From Gammaproteobacteria bacterium (GTDB taxonomy: Bacteria; Pseudomonadota; Gammaproteobacteria; Pseudomonadales; Azotimanducaceae), in NCBI GenBank assembly GCA_009840545.1, contig VXNM01000010.1:716627-780626 (forward strand): 64,000 bases of DNA, read 5' to 3'. The notes beneath the pieces are model-generated. The model had not been told where the DNA came from. It made no database searches and was given only the letters and a program-made list of their open reading frames with translations. Both the position numbers and the translations under genes were made by a program. Shown here piece after piece: positions 1,524-45,730 of this stretch (the stretch's first letter is position 1; each line of letters starts with the position of its first letter).

Positions 1524-2624
1524 GTGAAACCTTTCGACCCATCTCCGCTGTCGCCGCAGGGCCTTCAATTGGAGCCTTTAGTGTATCTGATTGGACAGGC
1601 CAATGCCATGCTTTCCAGATACGATGGACTGCTAGAAAACCTAATCAACCCTCAGGTTCTGCTCTCACCACTTGTCATGAAGGAGGCAGAACTCTCGTCG
1701 CGCATTGAAGGCACGATGGCTACAGCCAACGAGGCTTATCAAAAGGAGGCAGGCCGCGAATTCACTGCCGAGAAAGAAGCTGACATTCAAGAGGTCCTCA
1801 ACTACCGTTCAACTCTTCAACTTGCCACACACCTCATTGGGTCTCGACCGATAAATCTGTACCTAATCCGTCAAATGCACAGCACACTCATGCAGGGAGT
1901 GCGCGGAGCTCAGCTTCAGGTTGGTGGCTTTAGAGTCACCCAGAATTGGATAAGTCCCACGGGATGTTCCATCGATGAAGCGACGTACGTTCCACCATCA
2001 CCGGAACAGCTTCCAGGTCATTTGGAACAATTCGAAGCAGTTTTGACAAGTGCGGAACGGGAGCCCGATCCTATCGTACGCGCTGCTCTTCTACACGCAC
2101 AATTCGAACTCATTCATCCGTTTGACGATGGGAATGGACGGATAGGAAGACTATTGATTCCTCTCTACCTCAGCAAGATTGGCTGTCTTGTTAAACCTTC
2201 CTTCTATATCAGCGGCTACTTTGAAACGCACCGTGCGGAATATCTCCAACGGCTGGGCGCAATATCGAGTCATGGGGATTGGATGGGGTGGATAGAATTC
2301 TTCTTGAAGGCAGTCGTTGAGCAAGCACAACAGAATATCGGTCTTGTGCGAAGTATTGGGCAGTTGTATGAACAAAAAAAGAACGAATTCCTCACTTTAC
2401 TCAAGACCGAACTAGCTGTTCCACTTCTTGACTACTTGTTCAAGAAACCGGTGTTTTATGCACCGGATGTGCACCGAACTCTGGGTATCAATCGGGTACG
2501 TGCTGCCAAATACATCGGAATTCTGCGCGAGGCAGGTATCTTTCAAGAGATCGAACCGGCAACGGGTCGACAGGGTGCCTTTTTAGCACTAGACGCTCTT
2601 TTCGAAATCACTGACCAACAGTAG
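1524..2624 (+). CDS. Fic family protein (AMPylase-like) with C-terminal winged helix
   Basis: The 366-residue product carries the Fic signature HPFDDGNGRIGR from about residue 198. Its histidine is the catalytic base and its acidic/GNGR part binds the nucleotide in protein AMPylation. Near residues 58-63 the N-terminal inhibitory motif SSRIEG matches the (S/T)xxxE(G/N) pattern that blocks the active site in self-restrained Fic enzymes. The last 80 residues resemble a winged-helix DNA-binding domain (YAPDVHRTLGINRVRAAKYIGIL). This is the standalone N-Fic-HTH layout. The start is GTG; there is no clear Shine-Dalgarno sequence, and repeated CTAACACAAA sites lie immediately upstream. The target is unknown, and no antitoxin gene is adjacent because inhibition is built in. 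Confidence 0.9.
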   Translation: MKPFDPSPLSPQGLQLEPLVYLIGQANAMLSRYDGLLENLINPQVLLSPLVMKEAELSSRIEGTMATANEAYQKEAGREFTAEKEADIQEVLNYRSTLQLATHLIGSRPINLYLIRQMHSTLMQGVRGAQLQVGGFRVTQNWISPTGCSIDEATYVPPSPEQLPGHLEQFEAVLTSAEREPDPIVRAALLHAQFELIHPFDDGNGRIGRLLIPLYLSKIGCLVKPSFYISGYFETHRAEYLQRLGAISSHGDWMGWIEFFLKAVVEQAQQNIGLVRSIGQLYEQKKNEFLTLLKTELAVPLLDYLFKKPVFYAPDVHRTLGINRVRAAKYIGILREAGIFQEIEPATGRQGAFLALDALFEITDQQ

Positions 2625-5156: not shown

Positions 5157-5246
5157 GTTCTTCCTCCTAGAGAGTGGGTATATCTGAAAGGTTTCTGCCT
5201 TTCTCCTCTGACACTACTAATACCGTTTAGTTCGATATAGCGATCT

Positions 5247-5420
5247 CTACACTCTCCAATCGGTCACTTCGACGTCATCCAGGGTCTTGCTTCGTCCGCC
5301 ATGCCTATGCTTCAGCACTTGGAGGACAATCGAAACCGGAACGGGATCAGTCTCTAGTTGACAAGCCAATTGATCGTACGACGTGTCAAAGACCTCGATT
5401 TGGAGGCTAACTAAAGAGTT
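5247..5420 (-). pseudogene. Possible short gene remnant
   Basis: One frame is open for 57 codons between two stops and reads like protein (SLQIEVFDTSYDQLAC, then VSIVLQVLKHRHGGRSKTLD). It has no ATG and no ribosome site. It may be a fragment of a lost gene or chance. The rest of 5157-5582 holds nothing I recognise. Confidence 0.2.
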
Positions 5421-5637
5421 CTAGTTCAGCGGAGCGAGCTTGCTCCATGTTATACCAATTCTGGAGTATTCGATCTCGTTTCTGTTGGATCCGAGAAATT
5501 CGCCAGAACCGAAGGTTCTCTCGTTTAAGGAAATCCTTGGCTCGTTGGGGAGAAACATGTCGCTTTGCTGAATCAGTCCCTCATGGAACTGCAAAAATGG
5601 AGACTGAAGCAGAGTCGAAATACAAAAGCTACAGTTC

Positions 5638-6745: not shown

Positions 6746-7804
6746 ATGTCTAAGTTTGCGGCTACATGTGTATTGACAGCATGTATTTTTCTGGTAGCCG
6801 GATGCCTCTCGACCAGTGTGCCTCAGGTAGATAGAGAGGAGGTCACAAGCGCTTTATACGATCAGCGCAAACTTGCAGTTGATCTTTACTTGGAAAGGCT
6901 GGTTAAAGTAAACGAATTGGCTCTTCCGATCTTAAGAGCCAACAACGAAATTTGCAACGAGGTGTCTGGCCATCGAATAGGGGTAACAATTCTTACCAAG
7001 CGCTCTCTTCCATTTAACCTGCAGAAGGCCGCAGAGGACGAATTCGGCATTGGATCTCGACCGGTTATCTACATCACTCCAGGTACACCTGCCGCCAATA
7101 GCGAATTAAGAAGCGGAGATAGACTCTACCGAATCAACGACACCAATATAGGAGACAATCTGTGGTCTCGAAACACTGCACACAACGTCTTGAAAGATGC
7201 ACTCAAGGAGGGCGAGGACGTAACGCTTCGAGTCATGCGCCGAGGCAGCCATGATCAGATAGTTTCCGTGTTGACGCCCGAGCCGATGTGCCAATCCTTT
7301 GTTTACTTGATCCAGGACCCGCTTCCCAATGCGTTTGCCGATGGACAAGACATCTTCGTATACACCGGATTGCTGAAAGAAGCTGAAAACGACCATGAAG
7401 TGCAGGTTGTACTAGCTCACGAATTGGCTCACAACGCAATGTCACATGTTGCAAAGTCGGGAAGGATTGGATTAGTGGGCAGCGTGTTGGAGGCTTTGAT
7501 TTTCGACGAGGACGACGATGCTGATGGAGTGATATCCGATCTCGCAGTTCTAACGTTTAGTCCAAGTTTCGAACGCGAAGCAGACTACGTAGGAATCTAC
7601 ATGCTTGCCCGTGCTGGACTGGATACGGAGAGTGCTGCTACATTTTGGAGACGACTGGCGGTAGAGTACCCCGAGGAAAACCAAAGGACACTACTAGCGA
7701 CTCATCCCATTCATACGGAACGATTTCTGAGAATGGAGAAGGCGCATCAGGAGATAGTCGAGAAAATGGAAGATGGTTCCCCGCTCATTCCTGAAGCCAG
7801 ATAG
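6746..7804 (+). CDS. M48 family zinc metalloprotease, lipoprotein, with PDZ-like domain
   Basis: The 352-residue product has a lipoprotein signal with lipobox LVAGC (lipidated Cys20). The M48 zinc site HELAH is at about residues 225-229, and EREADYVG about 50 residues later supplies the third ligand. Between them and the N-terminus lies a PDZ-like segment (TPGTPAANSELRSGDRLYRIND). M48 lipoproteins act in periplasmic quality control of outer-membrane proteins (compare BepA and LoiP). The ATG is preceded by AAAGGGG. Two degenerate relatives lie in this window: a close paralogue at 13800-14472 and a more distant one at 16850-17645. Confidence 0.88.
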   Translation: MSKFAATCVLTACIFLVAGCLSTSVPQVDREEVTSALYDQRKLAVDLYLERLVKVNELALPILRANNEICNEVSGHRIGVTILTKRSLPFNLQKAAEDEFGIGSRPVIYITPGTPAANSELRSGDRLYRINDTNIGDNLWSRNTAHNVLKDALKEGEDVTLRVMRRGSHDQIVSVLTPEPMCQSFVYLIQDPLPNAFADGQDIFVYTGLLKEAENDHEVQVVLAHELAHNAMSHVAKSGRIGLVGSVLEALIFDEDDDADGVISDLAVLTFSPSFEREADYVGIYMLARAGLDTESAATFWRRLAVEYPEENQRTLLATHPIHTERFLRMEKAHQEIVEKMEDGSPLIPEAR

Positions 7805-13799: not shown

Positions 13800-14472
13800 A
13801 GACATGGATTAGTTGACACCGACATTGGAGACAATTTGTGGTCTCGAAACACGGCTCACAATGTATTGAAGGCAGCCCTCCGTAAGGGAGAGGAGGTAAC
13901 GCTGCGTGTCATGCGCCGAGGTAGTCACAATCAGATAGTCTCAGTGTTGAAACCTGAACCAATGTGCCAGTCCTTTGTATATTTGATCTAAGGCTCGATT
14001 GCGAATGCATTTGCCGATGGAAAGGACATTTTCATCTACGCGGGATTGCTCAAGAGGCGGACAACGACCATGAAGTACAGGTTGTATTGGCCCACGAATT
14101 GGCTCACAGCGCAATGTCTCATGTAGCGAAGTCAGGAGGGATTGGGTTGATAGGAAGCGTATTGGAAGCTTTGGTTTTCGACGCGGACGATGATGCCGAT
14201 GGGCTGATCTCCGATCTTGCACTGCGGGCGTTTAGTCCAGGTTTCGAACTCGAAGCCGATTACGTGGGAATCTACATGATTGCGCGCGCCGGGCTGGATA
14301 CGGAGAATGTTTCATCATTCTGGAGACGCCTGGCGGTAGAGTATCCCGAACAGAACCAGCGAACATTACTGGGTATACATCGCTTGCACACGGAACGATT
14401 TGTAAGCATGGAGACCGTTCATCGGGAGATAGTCGATAAGCTACGATTCGGTTCTCCGTTAACTCCTGGGAG
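13800..14472 (+). pseudogene. M48 protease pseudogene (paralogue of the gene at 6746)
   Basis: The sequence matches the intact protease from its PDZ end (DIGDNLWSRNTAHNVLK) through HELAHSAMSHVAKSG to PLTPG. The lipoprotein N-terminus is missing. A stop follows FVYLI at about 13991 and a frameshift follows near 14055. The zinc site itself is preserved, so loss is recent relative to the fragment at 13017. No functional product is expected. Confidence 0.85.
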
Positions 14473-34938: not shown

Positions 34939-35939
34939 TTGGTCGGTCCAGAATATTTTGTCTTGCTATCAAAAATAGCGGGAATTTTTCGGTGTAGAGA
35001 AATTTCGTGGTTCATGGCTACGCGGCCTTCCGTTCCATAGCTGCCTCCTCCAGTTTTTTCTTCGCCGCCCGCGGGCGTCAGCGGATCTTCCTTCTCGGAA
35101 GGCCGGAGCGCCCGGTGCGGCCGCACCCGGTTGTAGCGATCGCGGAACTCCTCGAGACACTGCCGGGCATGGTTGGGTCCGTCGTACATGCGCCAGTACA
35201 CCTCCTCCTTCTTCAGCGTCGAATGGAACCGCTCCAGCAGTCCCAGCTGCTGCGGGGTCCGGTACTGGATCCGCACATGGGAGAACCGCTCCTCGATGTG
35301 CTTCTGGAACTTGCGCGCCAGAAAGCAAGAGCCGTTGTCGGTGACCAGCGTCGGCTCCCGGTCCAGCGGACCGTGGAGGCGCTCCGCCTCGGCGCGGGCG
35401 AGATCCAGGGCGACCGCCACCGAGCCCGCGTTCTGGAACGGCGTCAGATGGCACGCCAGCAGGTACCGGGAGTAGTAGTCGTTCACCGTCACCGCGTACC
35501 ACCAGTGCCCCTGGGGCAGGTGGAGGTAGGTCACGTCCATCTGCCGCAGATCGTTGGGGCGCGAGGGAAGCAGCTCGAACAGGTGCCTCGTCTGGTGCAG
35601 CTCGGCACGGCGGGGAGCCCGCTTCTGCAGCAGGTTCAGCTCCCGCATGATGCGGTACGTCAGACGATCGGAATAGCCCGGGCCGACGTCCCTCCGGGCC
35701 ACCACCGCGATGCGCTTGTAGCCCCAGAAAGGATAGTGCCGGCAGAGGTCCCGGACCGCCTCCACTTGGAAGGGGTCCAGGGGCTCCCGAGGTCGTCCAC
35801 GAGGCTCGGCGTCCTCCTTCGGATGTCGGTACCACGTCGACGTCGACACTCCCAGATGGGCCAGCAGACGGGTCAGACGCAGCCTTCCGTCCCAGTCCTC
35901 TATCTCTTGGCGAACCCGATCGCGAAGCTCCTGCGTCAC
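34935..35939 (-). CDS. IS3-family transposase OrfB (DDE integrase domain)
   Basis: The 334-residue frame has HTH_21 (HYPFWGYKRIAVVARRD) and an rve integrase core with the DDE triad: QMDVTYL, VTDNGS and, 35 residues after the second Asp, LGLLERFHSTLKKEE. The C-terminus reads YNRVRPHRALRPSEKED, typical of IS3. The last residues run past the inverted repeat into flanking DNA. It is normally made as an OrfAB fusion by frameshifting. Confidence 0.88.
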   Translation of the reverse strand: MTQELRDRVRQEIEDWDGRLRLTRLLAHLGVSTSTWYRHPKEDAEPRGRPREPLDPFQVEAVRDLCRHYPFWGYKRIAVVARRDVGPGYSDRLTYRIMRELNLLQKRAPRRAELHQTRHLFELLPSRPNDLRQMDVTYLHLPQGHWWYAVTVNDYYSRYLLACHLTPFQNAGSVAVALDLARAEAERLHGPLDREPTLVTDNGSCFLARKFQKHIEERFSHVRIQYRTPQQLGLLERFHSTLKKEEVYWRMYDGPNHARQCLEEFRDRYNRVRPHRALRPSEKEDPLTPAGGEEKTGGGSYGTEGRVAMNHEISLHRKIPAIFDSKTKYSGPTK

Positions 35940-38261: not shown

Positions 38262-39287
38262 ATGAATTCACCGAACTTATTCAATTATGCGACGAAGGAA
38301 CTGTCGCAGGATGCCATGATCTGTTGGTTAATCGCATTTGCAGGTATGCAATCAGTGAGAAATCCAGCTGAAGTGGAGTTGCGTCAATGTGGTCGTGAGC
38401 TACTAAACGCTCTTTTTTCAAAATGGCAATTCACGCCGACAGTTTATGAGCGCGTGGAAGTGTTTCAACAAGAAAAGCACATTGACGTGTTGGTACGAAT
38501 AAATGAACGCCACGTCTTGTTAATTGAGGACAAGACCTTAACCAGAGATCACGATGACCAACTAACCCGATATCGAAACTTAGTGACCGAAGGAAAGACA
38601 CTGCTCCGCAATGTCAATACAGATGAGGTATTTCCCATCTATTTCAAGACAGGCAACCATTCTCTACGGGAACGCGAATATGCGAAATCCTGCAATTATC
38701 GTGTGTTCGACCGAAACGACTTTCTCAGTGTTCTTGAGTCGTACCAGGGAAATAACGAGATTTTCGTTGACTTTCGCAACCATCTGAAGAACTGGCAATT
38801 GGAAACTGAGAACTTTCGGCAGTGGACTAGTAAAGGAGAGAAGACAGATAGAGGTTGGCAAGGACTTTATCGGTGGATTGAGGAGAACTATCTGGTCGGG
38901 TGCAATGACAATTGGGGCCCTCTGGGAAGCCGTAACGAAGGATTCATTGGCAACTGGATTGAACCAACTGCTACGAGCGAGAACAGCAGATTTGCAATCT
39001 GGATCGAGCGGGACAAGATTGGATTTCGACTGTTCGGTAGTAAGAACAAACCATGTGCGGAAGGAATGAACCACGAGAAACAATATTGGGCTGATGCATT
39101 TGTAGAGAATGGCTCTGGTCGATTCACTTCGCCTGGCCGACTTGACGCAACGAGAACGAAACCAATGTGTGTGGCACAGTGGCGTGGCTGGTTGGTTTTT
39201 GGAGACAATGGACTTCTCGATTTGACCGCATCACTCAAAAACCTAAAAGATGCAAGGGAGATTCTCGTAACAACGATTCAACAATAA
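38262..39287 (+). CDS. PD-(D/E)XK nuclease superfamily protein, third of three
   Basis: The 341-residue product begins LFNYATKELSQDAMICWLIA, the conserved N-terminal motif of the PDDEXK_4-type family (SQDA followed by W). The core is EKHIDVLVRINERHVLLIEDKTLT with Asp and ExK, followed by DHDDQLTRYRN. The C-terminal 150 residues are a separate domain with many Trp (GWQGLYRWIEENYL, CVAQWRGWLVF). Such proteins are common in accessory islands and phage-defence neighbourhoods, and their substrates are mostly unknown. It lies directly after the second nuclease-like gene. Confidence 0.8.
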   Translation: MNSPNLFNYATKELSQDAMICWLIAFAGMQSVRNPAEVELRQCGRELLNALFSKWQFTPTVYERVEVFQQEKHIDVLVRINERHVLLIEDKTLTRDHDDQLTRYRNLVTEGKTLLRNVNTDEVFPIYFKTGNHSLREREYAKSCNYRVFDRNDFLSVLESYQGNNEIFVDFRNHLKNWQLETENFRQWTSKGEKTDRGWQGLYRWIEENYLVGCNDNWGPLGSRNEGFIGNWIEPTATSENSRFAIWIERDKIGFRLFGSKNKPCAEGMNHEKQYWADAFVENGSGRFTSPGRLDATRTKPMCVAQWRGWLVFGDNGLLDLTASLKNLKDAREILVTTIQQ

Positions 39288-42868: not shown

Positions 42869-42930
42869 GTAATTTCTCGCTATAGAGAAATTTCGTCCTT
42901 CATGGCGACACAGCCTTCCCCTCCAAGAAC
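42869..42930. repeat. Remnant of an IS3-type element end
   Basis: TAGAGAAATTTCGT followed by TTCATGGC and CAGCCTTCC matches the left part of the IS3 element (about 34994-35035) with a few changes. The rest of 42545-43139 (about 595 bp) holds no gene I can support. Confidence 0.5.
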
Positions 42931-44279: not shown

Positions 44280-45260
44280 ATGAAGAAACAGAGAAAGAAA
44301 GCGCCTGGGCAAGCCCACCGGAAGGGAATCACATTGTTGGAGCTCCTCCGTATGTTTCCTGACGAATCCACAGCCACTCGCTGGTTCGAGTCTGTCAGGT
44401 GGGAAAATGTCCGGTATTGCGGTCACTGTGGTTCGATTGCGACCCAAAAGACCAAGACCGGCAAACCCATGCCGTATTGGTGTAGGGATTGCAAGAGCTA
44501 CTTTTCAGTGCGAACCAACACGCCTATGGAATCGAGCAGGATACCTCTACACAAGTGGGGCATTGCCATCTACTTGCTGTGCACAAATCCCAAGGGCATA
44601 AGTAGCTTGAAGATGCACCGAGAAATTGGCATATCGCAGAAGTCGGCCTGGCACATGGTTCACAGGATCAGGGAAGGTCTTGGTATACAGGAAGGGGATG
44701 CACATTTCCGTGAACCTGTTGAGGTGGACGAAGCGTATATGGGAGGTAAGGAGGGCAACAAGCACTCCAGCAAGAAACTGAGAATGGGTCGTGGTATGGT
44801 GGGGAAGACGGCAGTAGTCGGTATCAAGACTCGACACTCTGGGGAGGTCTATGCACGAACAGTGAAGTCAACTGACCGGAAGACACTGCACGGAATCATC
44901 CGGAAGCATGTGAGAAAGGGAGCGAGAGTCTATACGGACGAAGCCAGGGCATACAAGAAACTCCACGGCTACAGGCACCAGAGCGTTAAGCATTCTGTGG
45001 GGCAATATGTGGATGGAATGGCGCACACGAACGGAATGGAAAGTTTCTGGTCAATGCTGAAACGCGGCTACCACGGAACCTACCATAAGATGAGTCCGAA
45101 GCATCTGGACCGGTACTGCAACGAGTTCGCAGGAAGGCACAACATTAGGCAAATGGACACATTGGAGCAAATGGAGGAAGTTGTACGGCAGATGAACGGC
45201 AGGACCTTGCCGTACAACAGGCTAATTGGAACGCAAAAATGTAAATGCTTAGTGAAGTAA
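44280..45260 (+). CDS. IS1595-family transposase, apparently intact
   Basis: The 326-residue protein has an N-terminal zinc ribbon (CGHCGSIATQ...YWCRDCKSYFSVRT). The ISXO2-like DDE domain follows: VEVDEAYMGGKEGNKH, VYTDEARAYKK and HTNGMESFWSMLKRGYHGTY. All catalytic positions are present, with the usual D/D/N-E arrangement, and the length is typical. No clear terminal inverted repeats were found around it, so the element limits are unknown. AGGTG precedes the ATG. It is unrelated in sequence detail to the remnant at 33360-33990. Confidence 0.92.
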   Translation: MKKQRKKAPGQAHRKGITLLELLRMFPDESTATRWFESVRWENVRYCGHCGSIATQKTKTGKPMPYWCRDCKSYFSVRTNTPMESSRIPLHKWGIAIYLLCTNPKGISSLKMHREIGISQKSAWHMVHRIREGLGIQEGDAHFREPVEVDEAYMGGKEGNKHSSKKLRMGRGMVGKTAVVGIKTRHSGEVYARTVKSTDRKTLHGIIRKHVRKGARVYTDEARAYKKLHGYRHQSVKHSVGQYVDGMAHTNGMESFWSMLKRGYHGTYHKMSPKHLDRYCNEFAGRHNIRQMDTLEQMEEVVRQMNGRTLPYNRLIGTQKCKCLVK

Positions 45261-45377: not shown

Positions 45378-45570
45378 TTCCGAGTGAGCAGATCACGTAT
45401 TTATACGGGTTCTGTTCGATTCACATCCCAGTCACTCATATATTACCTGCCGTTAGGCTCTTGCTGAAGTCTTTGAGACTGGTACAGGGTAAAACATTTA
45501 ATGTGCAAGGTTGGCACATTGTTGAGAGCTACCCGTTCACTTGAAGCAGTCACCGCAACAAAGCAAGCCT

Positions 45571-45643
45571 TGGTGGAGGCGGCGGGCGTCGAACCCGCAT
45601 CCCTGGTTTTGGAGACCAGGCTTTCCCATTTAAGTACGCCCCC
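45571..45643 (-). tRNA. Unusual tRNA with CCA anticodon and alanine-type acceptor (G3-U70)
   Basis: The minus strand folds into a full cloverleaf with encoded CCA. The acceptor stem is GGGGGCG with CGCCTCC (third pair G-U), discriminator A73. The D stem has 3 bp (CTT/AAG) with loop AAATGGGA. The anticodon stem is CTGGT/ACCAG with loop CTCCAAA (anticodon CCA, reading UGG). The variable loop has 4 bases. The T stem is GCGGG/CCCGC with loop TTCGACG. The total is 73 nt including CCA, three short of normal because of the D arm. Anticodon says tryptophan. G3-U70, G1-C72 and A73 are alanine identity features, and the 3' third resembles a tmRNA end. The true amino acid is therefore doubtful. Confidence 0.75.
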
Positions 45644-45660
45644 AATTAAGGCTTTTTGCC

Positions 45661-45693
45661 GAACCGCCGTCCTCGTTCACAGGACGGCGGTTC
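45661..45693. other. 13-bp perfect hairpin upstream of the tRNA
   Basis: GAACCGCCGTCCT pairs exactly with AGGACGGCGGTTC across a 7-base loop. On the minus strand it is followed by the mini-hairpin GGC-AAAAA-GCC and then the tRNA, 17 bases after the main stem. Neither strand shows a proper T-run, so a classical terminator is unlikely. It would be the leader of the tRNA transcript if the promoter at 45701-45730 is real. Confidence 0.6.
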
Positions 45694-45700
45694 ACTTCGT

Positions 45701-45730
45701 ATTTTATCAGCTGCGTTCTTTATAATGCAA
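45701..45730 (-). promoter_or_regulatory. Possible sigma70 promoter for the tRNA
   Basis: On the minus strand TTGCAT and TAAAAT are 18 bases apart. Transcription would start just before the 13-bp hairpin. The -35 is imperfect. Confidence 0.3.

Follow-up and report, generated by a model that had tools for sequence, protein, structure and literature searches.

A tRNA gene combining alanine identity elements with a tryptophan anticodon in an insertion-sequence-marked region of a gammaproteobacterial genome

Hybrid-identity tRNAs are known in bacteria from proline (tRNA-ProX), Sec and Cys cases, and further mismatched identities are said to have been reported (PMC11415595, available parts). The tRNA-ProX of Streptomyces and Kitasatospora carries a proline body with alanine, asparagine or threonine anticodons and is encoded next to a ProRSx gene; its expression led to mistranslation in E. 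coli (same parts of PMC11415595). In the available text of that paper, alanine identity is independent of the anticodon in tRNAs with a G3:U70 pair, AlaRS reportedly needing no more than this pair; tRNA-Ala genes whose anticodon has changed are known mistranslators; yeast tRNA-Ala(CAG) and human tRNA-Ala(ACC) are described there. Among extra tRNAs with a tryptophan anticodon, tRNA-Other of Bacillus cereus lies in a genomic-island setting, is poorly aminoacylated with lysine in vitro, is found off polysomes and forms part of a longer RNA (PMC3399842, in the sections available). For more than 95% of typical predicted tRNAs the anticodon matches the isotype model (tRNAscan-SE 2.0; PMC8450103, in part), so conflicts between anticodon and isotype are not vanishingly rare. 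The open literature searched, in the parts available, yielded no description of a bacterial tRNA that joins an alanine body to a CCA anticodon.

The gene described here lies in a 64 kb stretch of DNA (the window) from a genome of 3.39 Mb (14 contigs, 96.5% complete). Its product resembles tRNA-ProX, as far as the latter is described in the available text, in that body and anticodon differ in identity; it differs in having an alanine body and a tryptophan anticodon and in its surroundings, since a Pfam scan of 40 window frames recognized no synthetase gene. Anticodon-independent alanine identity would be shared with the yeast and human tRNA-Ala variants, which in the parts of their description available are eukaryotic and read codons other than the UGG concerned here. 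With tRNA-Other it has in common the tryptophan anticodon, the status of an extra copy and the island-like setting, going by the published description available.

Structure and identity elements of the tRNA

A single tRNA was called in the window by ARAGORN, as tRNA-Trp(cca) on the minus strand at 45571..45643 (73 nt). The Rfam tRNA model RF00005 matches it with 54.7 bits (gathering score 29). In the genome-wide search, in which 150 of 180 candidates were scored, 38 tRNA matches were reported and this one ranked 31st; one of the 38 is truncated by a contig end and received no ARAGORN call. This score is ordinary and unlike that of an obvious pseudogene. The initial annotation had described a complete cloverleaf with anticodon CCA, G3-U70, G1-C72, A73, a 3 bp D stem and an encoded CCA end, and each of these features was confirmed by ARAGORN, Rfam and the predicted fold. 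It had also named, as findings that would speak against it, a covariance score typical of a degenerate pseudo-tRNA and an exact copy of the sequence at the 3' end of ssrA, the tmRNA gene; with 54.7 bits and 29 of 32 positions (91%) shared with the ssrA 3' end of the same genome, neither was observed.

The acceptor stem is formed by the 5' strand GGGGGCG (45637..45643, minus strand; G3 at 45641), with which the own ssrA begins letter for letter, and by the 3' strand CGCCTCC, which together with A73 (45574) and the encoded CCA (45571-45573) occupies 45571..45581 (minus strand; U70 at 45577) and is identical to the ssrA 3' end. All seven acceptor pairs are made, G3.U70 included, among them G1-C72, G2-C71, G4-C69 and G5-C68. 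The D arm (45621..45634, minus strand) has a 3 bp stem CUU/AAG and the 8 nt loop AAAUGGGA, which is one position short in the Rfam alignment. The anticodon arm, CUGGU-CUCCAAA-ACCAG (45603..45619, minus strand; anticodon at 45610-45612), and the T arm, GCGGG-UUCGACG-CCCGC (45582..45598, minus strand), each pair at five of five positions in a stem test. The T arm agrees with that of the own ssrA at 15 of 17 positions and with that of the own tRNA-Trp at 14 of 17; the G at T-loop position 60 is shared with the own tRNA-Trp and with five of 460 viral tRNAs. Folded in isolation, the 73 nt gave a z score of -1.66, with 12 of 200 shuffled sequences equally stable, and this modest stability is no argument against a tRNA.

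Bacterial alanine determinants, as tabulated in the available part of PMC9976931, are A73, G2-C71, G3.U70, G4-C69 and G20; the tryptophan determinants in the same table are G73, A1-U72, G2-C71, G3-C70, G4-C69, G5-C68, A9 and C34 C35 A36. Read against this partial source, the window tRNA has A73, G2-C71, G3.U70 and G4-C69 of the alanine set, together with the motif GGGA in its shortened D loop; whether that motif supplies G20 varies with the alignment of the short loop, and the Rfam alignment places the G at another position. The alanine elements proposed in the initial annotation are thus present. Of the tryptophan set it keeps C34 C35 A36, A9, G2-C71, G4-C69 and G5-C68 and lacks G73, A1-U72 and G3-C70, having A73, G1-C72 and G3.U70 in their place. 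Body and anticodon therefore differ in identity as far as sequence features go. Of the distinct viral tRNAs from the loci fetched, 31 of 44 tRNA-Ala have GGGA in the D loop, compared with 16 of 402 others; within the genome itself the motif occurs in the one tRNA-Ala and in one of 35 other tRNAs.

The discriminator base is read in E. coli TrpRS by Glu155, and the exchange G73A lowered charging by B. subtilis TrpRS approximately ninefold (PMC12135181, available parts). Two TrpRS genes are present in the genome (three profile matches, two of them within one frame), at C3:321388-322368 and C3:380421-381602 (loci L444 and L445, in frames of 351 and 438 amino acids); the first lies about 700 bases from a tRNA-Ser(TGA) gene. 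In an alignment to E. coli TrpRS both frames have glutamate at the place of Glu155, and the longer has alanine in place of Gln152. Matches were present in 251 phage and 12 plasmid records; ten of these hits were fetched, and all nine tRNA-Trp that they contain have G73. Five of the nine are without an encoded CCA, and their G73 was taken from the printed end. A base-73 tally of 12 viral tRNA-Trp was left out of account, because a different base had been read wherever CCA is not encoded. Because of the four alanine features, the missing tryptophan features and the glutamate at the G73-reading place in both TrpRS frames, alanine is the better guess than tryptophan for the amino acid with which this tRNA would be charged.

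Counterparts in the genome and setting of the gene

A regular tRNA-Trp with A1-U72 and G73 was called by ARAGORN, which was run on the stretches around tRNA matches, on contig C12, and a complete tmRNA gene with the tag ANDDNYALAA was called on contig C5, about 195 kb from the window tRNA. The genome search suggested in the initial annotation thus located both counterparts elsewhere, ssrA being intact, and the window tRNA is consequently an extra gene.

The gene lies between a frame for an IS1595-type transposase (44280-45260; Pfam) and small frames that have no Pfam match. A 55 bp stretch at 42871-42925, which looks like an insertion-sequence end, recurs with 82% identity at 34983-35037 and has further matches on C12 and C5; the copy at 34983-35037 adjoins a transposase-like frame, and no recognised transposase stands beside the copy at 42871-42925. 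In a search of 1000 bases, the flanks of the tRNA matched none of 57 relatives beyond the ssrA-like stretch. Tyrosine recombinases (PF00589) gave three matches in the genome, none near the window tRNA or ssrA. The tRNA 3' end does not recur in the window, and elsewhere in the genome it is matched by ssrA and the regular tRNA-Trp alone; neither window nor genome has the arrangement of an integrase gene with a displaced repeat of the ssrA 3' end next to it. The gene thus lies in an accessory region in which nothing points to an element that targets tRNA genes.

A perfect 13 bp hairpin (45661..45693, minus strand; inverted repeat I9) stands upstream of the tRNA and could be a leader or a terminator-like site of the plus strand; the fold of 45644-45705 has a z score of -7.5, and a terminator-like call was made here on the plus strand. 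A repeated hairpin element was considered and rejected, since the upstream stretch has no second copy in the genome and matches only the hairpin's own opposite strand. The nearest upstream promoter-like site that a consensus scan listed on the tRNA strand is more than 600 bases away; a candidate, TTGCAT-18-TAAAAT (45701..45730, minus strand), was read by eye and is weak because it is absent from that list. Downstream, a weak terminator-like hairpin with seven pairs, three of them G-C, was found by the scan 51 nt past the tRNA 3' end (45500..45520, minus strand). No T box was found, the tRNA being the sole Rfam match at gathering score in the window.

Three further assignments of the region were tried and rejected. 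For a passenger of the IS1595-type element evidence was lacking: the inverted-repeat pairs found (21 of 12-24 nt) were all weak; pair I3 (74%) brackets the transposase without the tRNA and pair I11 (75% over 16 nt) brackets both, and neither of these two convinces. For a prophage remnant there was a single weak PHROGs match among ten neighbouring frames. For a defence island, PADLOC applied to ten frames returned one clear match (PDC-S26) and weak matches to DrmC and JetA, none tied to the tRNA. The frame at 38262-39287, with matches to PDDEXK_4 (Pfam) and PDC-S26 (PADLOC), is a candidate defence protein in its own right. Elsewhere in the window, 7139-7793 and 13815-14468 share about 650 bp at 79% identity and correspond to two M48-peptidase frames; four more repeated stretches occur between 10 and 21.5 kb, which suggests duplication and decay.

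Occurrence in other genomes and origin of the parts

No copy of the window tRNA was found in the 57 other relatives. Shorter matches occurred in 38 of them, and the 19 loci fetched from these were all tmRNA genes; in one relative (G023, L056) two tmRNA genes (5212-5565 and 7397-7750) are separated by about 2.2 kb and followed by an identical stretch of 40 nt, a pair that may reflect a duplication or an assembly repeat. A pattern of GGG at positions 1-3, CCA anticodon, U70 and A73 occurred in 13 of 390 genomes of the order and 19 of 369 of the class (the own genome counted in both samples, which have five genomes in common, the own included), and the match was a tRNA, as judged by eye, in the own genome only. 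A broader A73 pattern, which occurred in five of the 369 class genomes, gave the same result by eye. As a control, the broader pattern with G73 was applied to relatives, unlike the A73 scan of the class sample, and gave a tRNA-Trp-like match, by eye, in each of 34 of 38 genomes, missing four. Divergent cases would escape all of these patterns, since they demand exact letters and an encoded CCA.

A narrower pattern returned 62 stretches from genome_contigs, none of which was a CCA-anticodon tRNA with A73 by ARAGORN and the stem test. From viral_contigs, three patterns returned 10, 0 and 14 stretches, L433 being the only one of these that, by ARAGORN and the stem test, could be a tRNA with a CCA anticodon and A73. 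L433 is a 107 nt tRNA-like cloverleaf at approximately 2177-2283 (minus strand) of a 252 kb viral contig (IMG/VR 3300036766_000988); it has G3.U70 and A73, and its D loop contains an additional hairpin. It scored 24 bits in Rfam, below the gathering score, and received no default ARAGORN call, and for these reasons it is treated as a candidate; going by its sequence, it is possibly a second alanine/tryptophan hybrid.

The initial annotation had pointed out that the 3' third of the tRNA looks like a tmRNA end and had offered descent from ssrA, or from an integration at ssrA, as an alternative. The likeness holds: the acceptor agrees with that of the own ssrA at 14 of 14 positions, and acceptor and T arm together agree at 29 of 31 positions, compared with at most 24 of 31 for 36 other ARAGORN-called tRNAs of the genome (one tRNA-Ala included, tRNA-Ala(TGC) being absent from this set). 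In the last 32 nt, up to 30 positions are shared with viral tmRNAs, 29 with the own ssrA and 28 with the best of the 460 viral tRNAs, which are those with an encoded CCA. The tmRNA model RF00023 gave 36.3 bits, under its gathering score of 47; a tmRNA has an mRNA-like part with a reading frame for the tag, whereas the window tRNA is without such a domain but has complete D and anticodon arms. The acceptor GGGGGCG/CGCCTCCACCA was, however, also found among the matches listed in 51 tRNAs of 204 viral loci, 49 of them tRNA-Ala and two tRNA-Ile, and in 29 tmRNAs of the same loci (204 examined of 222 fetched, partly by that very acceptor pattern, copies not being made distinct). Many of these viral tRNA-Ala also share U8 A9 and the D-loop GGGA with the window tRNA, from which they differ in having alanine anticodons (49 of 51 among the matches listed) instead of CCA. 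A firm descent from ssrA was dropped because of this shared acceptor, and no hallmark of an integration was found at the places searched; for these two reasons the ssrA alternative is possible but not favoured.

The best-scoring whole-length viral match was a tRNA-Ala (L356) with 60 identities. The anticodon arm shares all 17 letters with a phage tRNA-Trp, from Caulobacter phage CcrSC (L187), and agrees at 15 of 17 positions with the own tRNA-Ser(TGA) and at 13 of 17 with the own tRNA-Trp. The gene probably arose from a phage-type alanine tRNA in which the anticodon arm came to be one of tryptophan type; such an alanine tRNA or ssrA may have supplied the T arm. Viral tRNAs with alanine-type GGG/UCC-A ends and the ARAGORN anticodons Arg, Ile, Ile and Met were also seen (L382, L394, L395 and L417); they are four of 67 with such ends, were classed by ARAGORN call alone and were excluded from the argument.

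Interpretation

We favour, with a little less than even confidence, the reading that the gene, which lies in an insertion-sequence-marked accessory stretch, encodes an extra tRNA of hybrid identity that could be charged by AlaRS. The alanine-type body would comprise the acceptor stem, A73 and the D-loop GGGA, and the anticodon arm would be of tryptophan type. If transcribed and matured, the tRNA would be charged by AlaRS through G3.U70 and A73 irrespective of the anticodon and would then read UGG, inserting some alanine in competition with Trp-tRNA-Trp; both steps are inferred from known rules. Since alanine at UGG should be costly, low expression would be favoured. The shortened D arm, the lack of a near promoter in the consensus scan and the many tryptophan determinants retained also weigh against this reading.

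The strongest rival, a serious one though clearly less probable, is that of a silent or decaying foreign tRNA gene without present function; hybrid identity would then be tolerated because the tRNA is not made. The restriction to a single genome in all three samples (57 relatives, 390 genomes from the order and 369 from the class), flanks that match relatives in the ssrA-like stretch alone, the adjoining IS1595-type transposase, the nearby relic resembling an insertion-sequence end, the short D loop and the lack of a near promoter in the consensus scan all agree with it, but the pairs of the acceptor, anticodon and T stems are intact and the three differences from the own ssrA 3' end all fall outside stems. 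Occurrence in one genome fits a recent arrival and equally a dying relic. That the gene encodes simply another tRNA-Trp, atypical at its ends but with tryptophan still its amino acid, seems improbable: against the retained anticodon, A9, G2-C71, G4-C69 and G5-C68, the modest cost of G73A in B. subtilis (both going by the partial sources cited above) and the presence of two TrpRS genes, one of them with alanine for Gln152, by which base 73 might be read differently, stand the lack of G73, A1-U72 and G3-C70 from the set as available, the glutamate in both TrpRS frames and the competition to be expected from AlaRS through G3.U70.

We consider it quite improbable, by analogy with tRNA-Other, that the gene is a pseudo-tRNA with a non-decoding role. 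The anticodon and the setting are similar to those in the available description of that system, and the strong hairpin directly upstream could belong to a longer RNA, but no T box was found in the window by Rfam. A remnant of an ssrA-integrating element or a shortened ssrA duplicate appears the least probable of these alternatives; it would account for the agreement of acceptor, T arm and 3' end with ssrA, the last closer than in any of the 460 viral tRNAs, yet the gene is more than a 3' fragment, having both acceptor strands and every arm of the cloverleaf, ssrA is intact some 195 kb away, none of the three tyrosine-recombinase matches lies near either gene, further 3'-end copies are lacking at the places searched, and the acceptor is common to alanine tRNAs. 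A bolder extension of the preferred hybrid-tRNA reading, and a very improbable one, is that a dedicated alanine/tryptophan hybrid from a phage-type source recodes some UGG codons as alanine during stress or infection, with L433 as an independent viral counterpart; were it true, tRNAs that place alanine at tryptophan codons would form a class found in bacteria and viruses.

The observation itself is sound and unusual. Few natural tRNAs combine a body of one identity with the anticodon of another, and an alanine body reading UGG would make a clean, testable case, because AlaRS ignores the anticodon, tryptophan has a single codon and an exchange of tryptophan for alanine is easily seen by mass. 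Such a case would reveal whether hybrid tRNAs are tolerated, silenced or used, and whether tRNAs of phage type are a source of them.
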